Translations under genes and position numbers: made by a program | The notes under the pieces: model-generated | What the model saw: the letters and a program-made list of their open reading frames with translations, nothing else | Databases searched by the model: none | Told to the model about the DNA's origin: nothing | From: Helicostylum pulchrum | Taxonomy: Eukaryota; Mucoromycota; Mucoromycetes; Mucorales; Mucoraceae | Direction: 5' to 3' | Assembly: GCA_025677825.1 (NCBI GenBank) | Contig: JAIXMO010000010.1 | Span: 310,001 to 374,000, forward strand | Length of the DNA: 64,000 nucleotides | Shown: positions 56,266 through 57,087 of the stretch, one piece after another | Numbering within the stretch: position 1 is the first letter of the stretch | Layout: each line of letters begins with the position of its first letter

Positions 56266-57087
56266 ATGAAGTAAGGCGAAATCCATCCATCAAAAGTATA
56301 ATCCATCAACTAAGCTCGATTTTTTTTTTTTTTTGCAATCAATTTAGGCTCGAGATTTGTTCCTTCTCTGGTCACAAGATTTACCCTTCCAAGGGTAAGA
56401 CCTACGTCCGTATTGATAGCAGGTAATTTTTTTTAAAACATGGCACTACCAAAAATAAGATACTGACATTTTCTTTTTTCCTTTTTAAATAGAGTATGTA
56501 TTATAGAGAGAGAGAAAGAAAGAAAGAGGACATATAAAAGAGAGAGAGAGAGATAAAAGAGGATTTTTTTTTTAAAAAAAGGGGATGGGATAATTTAGAT
56601 AAGAAGTGTTCAAAAAGCTAATCTAGATTTATCAATTGTAGCATTTCCGTTTCATTAGCGGTAAGGCCTGTTCTTACTTCATTCAACGTTTGAACCCCCG
56701 TAAGATCAAGTGGACCGTTATCTACCGTCGTTTGAATAAGAAGGGTATGCAAGAAGAGTTCCAAAAGAAGCGTTCTCGCCGTACCGTCAAGCACGAGCGT
56801 GCTGTTGTTGGTGCCTCTTGGGATGCTATCCGTGCCAAGCGTAACCAAAAGCCCGATGCCCGTGCTGCCGCTCGTCAAGCTGCTATCTCCAAGTCCAAGG
56901 ATGCCAAGAAGGCCGCTAACGCTGCCAAGAAGGCTGCTGCTCCTACTGTAAGTTTTTAAATATTATTTTTTTTAAAAGGGGGAGAACGATAAACTCAATT
57001 TTTCTTTTATAATAGGGTGCTCAAGCCAAGGTCAGCAAGCAAGGTGCTAAGGGTTTCGCCCCTAAGGCCGCTGCCACTTCTCGTTAA
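56266..57087 (+). CDS. RPL24: 60S ribosomal protein eL24, with a 1-nt exon
   Basis: Predicted exons are 56266-56270 (5 nt), 56348-56422, 56493 (1 nt), 56642-56947 and 57016-57087, giving 152 residues. The protein is eL24: KLEICSFSGHKIYPSKGKTY, VRIDSR, then FRFISGKACSYFIQRLNPRK, KWTVIYRRLNKKG, and AKRNQKPDARAAARQ, with a Lys/Ala-rich tail. Exon 2 ends two bases into a codon, while the CATTTCCGT exon starts in phase 0, so one extra base is needed. Position 56493 (A) is preceded by a branch point TACTGAC, a pyrimidine tract and TAG, and followed by the ideal donor GTATGT. It completes an Arg codon. The alternative acceptor at 56656 keeps the frame but deletes the conserved FRFI strand. Confidence 0.92.

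Follow-up and report, generated by a model that had tools for sequence, protein, structure and literature searches.

The window, the whole 64-kb stretch of Helicostylum pulchrum DNA analyzed here, carries a gene for the ribosomal protein eL24 on its + strand. Joining of 56266–56270, 56348–56422, 56493, 56642–56947, and 57016–57087 yielded an intact, gapless eL24 protein of 152 amino acids, with the third of these five pieces being a single nucleotide. H. pulchrum belongs to Mucorales, the order that the first-pass annotation of this DNA had named, and a genome note exists for H. pulchrum KT1b (PMC11385716). The features of the gene are listed below with the basis for each in parentheses; slashes in sequences mark splice joints.

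56266–56270, + strand: coding part of exon 1, ATGAA, 5 nt (both paralogs alike)
56271–56347, + strand: intron 1, 77 nt, GTAAGG...TTTAG (exon joining)
56348–56422, + strand: exon 2, 75 nt, ending in GATAGCAG, phase 2 (sequence, exon joining)
56406–56411, + strand: rival donor GTCCGT within exon 2 (the paralog on contig C13 has a deposited model built with such a donor)
56423–56492, + strand: intron 2, 70 nt, GTAATT...AAATAG (sequence, exon joining)
56461–56467, + strand: TACTGAC, branch-point motif of intron 2 (sequence motif)
56490–56492, + strand: TAG acceptor closing intron 2, after a pyrimidine tract (sequence)
56493, + strand: predicted exon 3, a single A, the third base of the Arg codon AG/A (frame, shuffles, paralogs)
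56494–56499, + strand: GTATGT, donor of intron 3 (sequence)
56494–56641, + strand: intron 3, 148 nt, GTATGT...TTGTAG, phase 0 (sequence, exon joining)
56505–56530, + strand: GA-rich run of 26 nt early in intron 3, candidate intronic enhancer (purine-run count)
56618–56622, + strand: CTAAT, candidate branch point of intron 3 (motif search)
56642–56947, + strand: exon 4, 306 nt, opening with HFRFISGKA, first bases CATTTCCGT after TAG (sequence, exon joining)
56948–57015, + strand: intron 4, 68 nt (exon joining)
57016–57087, + strand: exon 5, 72 nt, TAA stop (exon joining)

Exon 2 ends at 56422 in phase 2, its last two bases being the first two (AG) of an Arg codon; the exon encoding the FRF motif starts at 56642 in phase 0, so that direct joining of the two is out of frame, as the first-pass annotation of this DNA had stated. 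That annotation placed a lone A at 56493 between TACTGAC, a pyrimidine tract, and TAG on one side and GTATGT on the other, and each of these elements was found at its coordinates. Its proposal that the A completes AGA and restores the pattern D-S-R-x-FRF is also supported: the one base completes AG/A between exons that are out of phase with each other, giving D-S-R-H-F-R-F and thereby both the frame and the conserved motif. The resulting protein scored 98 bits against Pfam PF01246 (L24e; cut-off, 27 bits), matching positions 1–66 of 66 without a gap, and the three best-matching solved eL24 chains, whose alignments were inspected, read D-[SN]-K-x-F-R-F, likewise ungapped. The length of 5 nt given earlier for the first coding exon stands; exon 1 is not a microexon in its own right, given that it presumably includes 5' UTR as well.

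Two other contigs of this genome each carry a further eL24 gene, likewise in five pieces (G000:C1:948522 on the minus strand; G000:C13:174435). The one-base A exon lies between introns 2 and 3 of 88 and 119 nt in the C1 copy and of 68 and 76 nt in the C13 copy, in which exon 2 ends in GATTCTAG. All three copies share the layout AG/GTA...YAG/A/GTANG...AG/CATTTCCG, with an acceptor (branch motif and YAG) and a donor (GTRNG) flanking the single base in each. Intron 3 of the C1 copy is without a CTRAY branch motif. Fourfold-degenerate sites differ among the copies at 12/72, 14/74, and 18/72 positions, intron lengths differ as well, and the introns are 43–70% identical per alignment column, being partly diverged yet more similar than shuffled controls. 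The copies are related duplicates, and counts over them are not independent trials; conservation of the exon among homologues was seen in the DNA of these three paralogs of one genome and, for other species, was assessed only indirectly, via protein models.

The first-pass annotation had raised the possibility of a genome sequencing error at the exon edge. Loss of one base there during sequencing or assembly, with a single ordinary 219-nt intron in place of two introns, would produce precisely a one-base shortfall. It would have to have occurred identically at three loci on three contigs, however, and each locus would also need a chance acceptor, A, and donor between two intron-sized segments. 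Given that the same one-base exon is present in two more eL24 genes with partly diverged introns, such an error is extremely improbable.

We searched the interval 56423–56641 for internal exons of 1–60 nt flanked by introns of 40 nt or more, and A 56493 was the sole stop-free AG..GT exon that restored the frame. Sites comparable to it, defined as YAG-R-GTRNG with a CTRAY branch motif, arose in 2, 4, and 1 of 5000 dinucleotide shuffles of the interval for the window, C1, and C13 copies, respectively, and are present in all three real sequences. A looser pattern in which the middle base is free occurs three times in the 64-kb window, counting the two strands together and the 56493 site included.

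Several other solutions were tried and rejected. A longer internal exon has only one other in-frame candidate, a 10-nt segment with a poor donor in the C1 copy. Continuation of exon 2 into intron 2 meets a stop immediately (AGG TAA) in all three copies. With ribosomal frameshifting, each of the three copies would have to shift although a spliceable A exists. A stwintron, with removal of the whole of 56423–56641, would retain no base of an exon and disrupt the frame, resulting in a stop after 43 codons.

Use of another acceptor was also named at the outset as a competing outcome. At the DNA level, we examined single GT-AG joints with a donor in exon 2 or at its end and an acceptor from 30 nt past exon 2 to 60 nt into exon 4. 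Three such joints per copy, corresponding to one another among the copies, keep the frame. Each of them removes conserved residues: one loses VRIDSR, another a larger stretch, and the last the FRF motif. Two of the three were scored with Pfam and yielded 71.5 bits (VRIDSR loss) and 74 bits (FRF loss), compared with 98 bits.

Joining of the GTCCGT donor at 56406 to 56642 would give a protein reading KTY-HFRF without VRIDSR, an mRNA without GTCCGTATTGATAGCAG, and no microexon. This joint is in frame in 3/3 copies and yields exactly P0002, a deposited H. pulchrum protein, and the form without VRIDSR is found in nine models from Mucorales (P0002 among them) and two from Umbelopsis among the best 120 of 270 matches. 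We nevertheless regard it as very improbable. It removes V22, R23, and D25, which are invariant in 15/15 aligned proteins, as well as residues present in the three solved chains, with the Pfam score falling by the amount given above, and it leaves the conserved YAG-A-GTANG without explanation. Its donor is GTC or GTT, whereas the donors predicted in the three eL24 genes and two genes for the paralogous RLP24 family begin with GTA in 16 of 16 cases. Differences between paralogs in the 17-nt tail of exon 2 are all synonymous (GTC versus GTT, and AGC versus TCT for Ser), a pattern that indicates that the tail is coding, and the bases that the GTCCGT joint would discard vary only in this way, the AGC/TCT exchange being among them. 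Two models of Gongronella butleri differ solely by the six residues, and two other species pairs with and without them show 2 and 3 further differences.

An acceptor inside the FRF exon, given earlier as 56657, does exist, but the exon it would define starts at 56659, with CATTAG ending at 56658. Its joining to the donor at 56423 would produce DS-SGKA with loss of FRF, an mRNA without CATTTCCGTTTCATTAG, and no microexon; it is in frame in 3/3 copies and corresponds to the deposited Mucor mucedo model P0013. Such a product would lack F29 and F31, both invariant in 15/15 aligned proteins, and has the lower domain score of 74 bits, and differences between paralogs in the FRF stretch are synonymous, so that we consider this joint as remote as a sequencing error.

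The one-nucleotide exon was the only solution found that yields the full eL24 domain. On the strength of the genomic sequence, we put at roughly 94% the probability that A 56493 is a real, constitutive one-nucleotide coding exon in an intact, duplicated eL24 gene of H. pulchrum.

When U1 binds a 5' splice site, it occupies the stretch from the last three bases of the exon to base 6 of the intron. U1 positioned on the donor of intron 3 would therefore cover the 3' AG of intron 2, and, given this footprint, the two sites could not be occupied together and removal would be stepwise. Introns 2 and 3 are thus most likely removed one after the other. Neither is unusual in size, and both are probably recognized by intron definition. 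If intron 2 were removed first, exon 2 would supply its own AG; as AG is the end of intron 2 and of exon 2 alike, AGA/GTATGT would be identical before and after this step. The sequence would equally permit removal of intron 3 first.

Omission of the A would cause a frameshift, with a computed stop after 43 codons that lies 254 nt upstream of the last junction in all three copies, and the product would probably be a substrate for nonsense-mediated decay. It is conceivable that the A is used but that its skipping serves as a regulated, unproductive outcome that tunes the supply of eL24. The early stop of the skipped form in 3/3 copies fits such a role, as do GA-rich runs of 26 to 34 nt downstream of the one-base exon in each copy. 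Ribosomal genes are strongly expressed, however, which makes skipping probably rare, and GA runs double as microsatellites; regulated skipping thus seems unlikely, if clearly less so than the alternative joints, and we favor constitutive use of the A. The GA-rich runs measure 26, 31, and 34 nt, start 11–24 nt past the beginning of intron 3, and are the longest purine runs among all four introns in each eL24 gene. They could stand in for exonic enhancers, which a one-base exon cannot hold, or they could be microsatellites. In the 64-kb window, purine runs of at least 25 nt with at least 20% G number only seven over the two strands together.

As the first-pass annotation noted, plants are known to have one-base exons; a fungal case was also published in February 2026. 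A single-nucleotide exon of Arabidopsis APC11 was shown experimentally, with its authors proposing stepwise intron removal (PMC4674806). That exon, as described there, resembles the one in eL24 in comprising one A between two canonical introns, in being required for the frame, and in having a wrong deposited annotation (PMC4674806); APC11 is a plant cell-cycle gene, whereas the eL24 exon belongs to a fungal ribosomal protein gene, is present in three paralogs, and is predicted from the genomic sequence. In plants, RNA-seq and RT-PCR support was reported for 1-nt microexons in APC11 and VPS55, which are described as lineage-conserved and as absent from the reference annotations of the species studied, with wrong models as the result (PMC8831610); the hosts there are plants, in contrast to the fungal host of eL24. 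The one-nucleotide exon of Fusarium CYP621A, presented by its authors as the first fungal case, shares with that of eL24 a fungal nuclear gene, a phase mismatch, a base that completes a codon of a conserved motif, and wrong models, and differs in that the base is G and the gene a rarely expressed P450, with 18 supporting reads (PMC12940212). Fungal stwintrons, as reported, also comprise two neighboring introns that need ordered removal, but there one intron lies within a splice signal of its partner, with no base of an exon left between the two (PMC5639578, PMC6616335), whereas eL24 keeps one coding base. A single A between two introns has likewise been described for mitochondrial group II introns, although in an organelle and an rRNA gene (PMC12308204). 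Annotated 1-bp exons appear in a 2011 survey that presents them without experimental support (PMC3064661). Within the literature searched, only a few genes have nuclear one-base exons for which transcript support has been published, and the open-licence literature yielded no report of such an exon from Mucorales or from any ribosomal protein gene. The exon of eL24 would join this rare set, with a host gene that is unusual and an age that may be so.

Use of the TAC/GTCCGT donor and a start in intron 1 at the C13 locus regenerated the deposited protein P0002 without a single mismatch. The source DNA at this locus carries the one-base exon, which the deposited annotation misses, dropping six residues. 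P0002 starts within intron 1 of the C13 paralog (MDILRFFFFFFYYCR...; G000:C13:173500-175500, positions 749–850) and so looks wrong at two places.

A profile scan of the genome-contig and viral-contig collections with the eL24 alignment yielded no eL24 gene from relatives, and deposited protein models were compared at the joint. Groups and genus lists were assigned by hand from organism names, and the control expression KPDARAAARQAA was left out of the counts. Among the best 120 of 270 matches, the exact spacing across the joint was found in 19/60 models from Mucorales, 0/6 from Umbelopsidales, 0/1 from Endogonales, and 16/16 from Mortierellomycetes, as well as in 25/25 from other named organisms (P0102 by eye) and 11 of the 12 metagenome proteins. 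The spacing was kept in all 73 of the further proteins among the best 120 of 1346 matches (70 by expression; P0122, P0129, and P0135 by eye). Poorer models, above all those of distant groups, may be missed in these sets and in that for RLP24, which cover the best 120 of 270, 1346, and 5410 matches, respectively. Among the matches listed, non-exact eL24 models span 18 of the 26 genera of Mucorales, according to the hand-made lists. The motif at the first intron, M-K/LEIC, is kept in 36/60 Mucorales models, 20 of which still break at the one-base joint; part of the breakage may reflect a general difficulty with the short exons of the eL24 gene. The 19 exact Mucorales models may represent either inclusion of the exon or genes without it.

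Nine broken models (eight from Mucorales, one from Endogonales) read D-[SN]-R-V-[RSC], which on back-translation would look as if AG/R were followed by an in-frame GTA plus AGN, CGN, or TGN, that is, by a donor. This pattern alone is no proof of an upstream intron, given that read-through of a single intron after the Arg codon gives the same result. Two other broken models read D-S-R-Y, which would be compatible with a phase-2 donor, AG/GTAYGY. P0029, a model from Choanephora, might be read as containing an unspliced intron 2, with an implied length of 70 nt, from a phase-2 GTAAG; its insert ends in F-L-F-S-A-Y-R directly before T-F-R-F, and these residues would correspond to a pyrimidine tract, YAG, and one purine.

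RLP24 provides a control for these comparisons. Its gene is duplicated in the H. pulchrum genome, with two open copies of 159 amino acids (deposited as P0194 for C1 and P0195 for C104), and contains one phase-0 intron homologous in place to intron 3 of eL24 (N-D-S-K/T-F-R-F). Among the best 120 of 5410 matches, a species set different from that for eL24, RLP24 models were exact at the joint in 41/42 Mucorales, 7/7 Umbelopsidales, and 1/1 Endogonales. The pattern of broken eL24 models and exact RLP24 models would fit a one-base exon that is old and shared across the lineage. Given that the single intron of RLP24 has exactly the same position, the phase-0 intron may predate the other; intron 2 would have been gained one base upstream, at a CAG/A proto-splice site, before Mucorales diversified. 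This proposal of intron gain differs from the route suggested for CYP621A by Nelson and Syed, in which loss of a base was rescued by a cryptic one-base exon (PMC12940212).

We therefore lean, with some reserve, toward the view that the one-base exon has been kept since before the split of Mucorales and Umbelopsidales in most copies, with eL24 mRNA reliant on error-free stepwise splicing. If so, it would be the oldest one-base exon of fungi and the first in a ribosomal protein within the literature searched, and a lineage-wide defect of deposited gene models would be explained. The data suggest that database entries for eL24 from Mucorales include many models that are predictably wrong. As an essential and presumably strongly expressed gene with three natural copies, eL24 offers a clean test of the spliceosome at introns one base apart, and the copies also bear on splicing accuracy and on how one-base exons arise. 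A scan for conserved genes whose models are repeatedly broken at one joint inside a lineage is a further use of this approach.

P0119, a metagenome eL24-like protein (longest contig, 2,585 bases), has seemingly unspliced sequence directly before TFRFVNGKC. This residue pattern is the one seen in Umbelopsis, and the DNA of P0119 might show the joint in another lineage.
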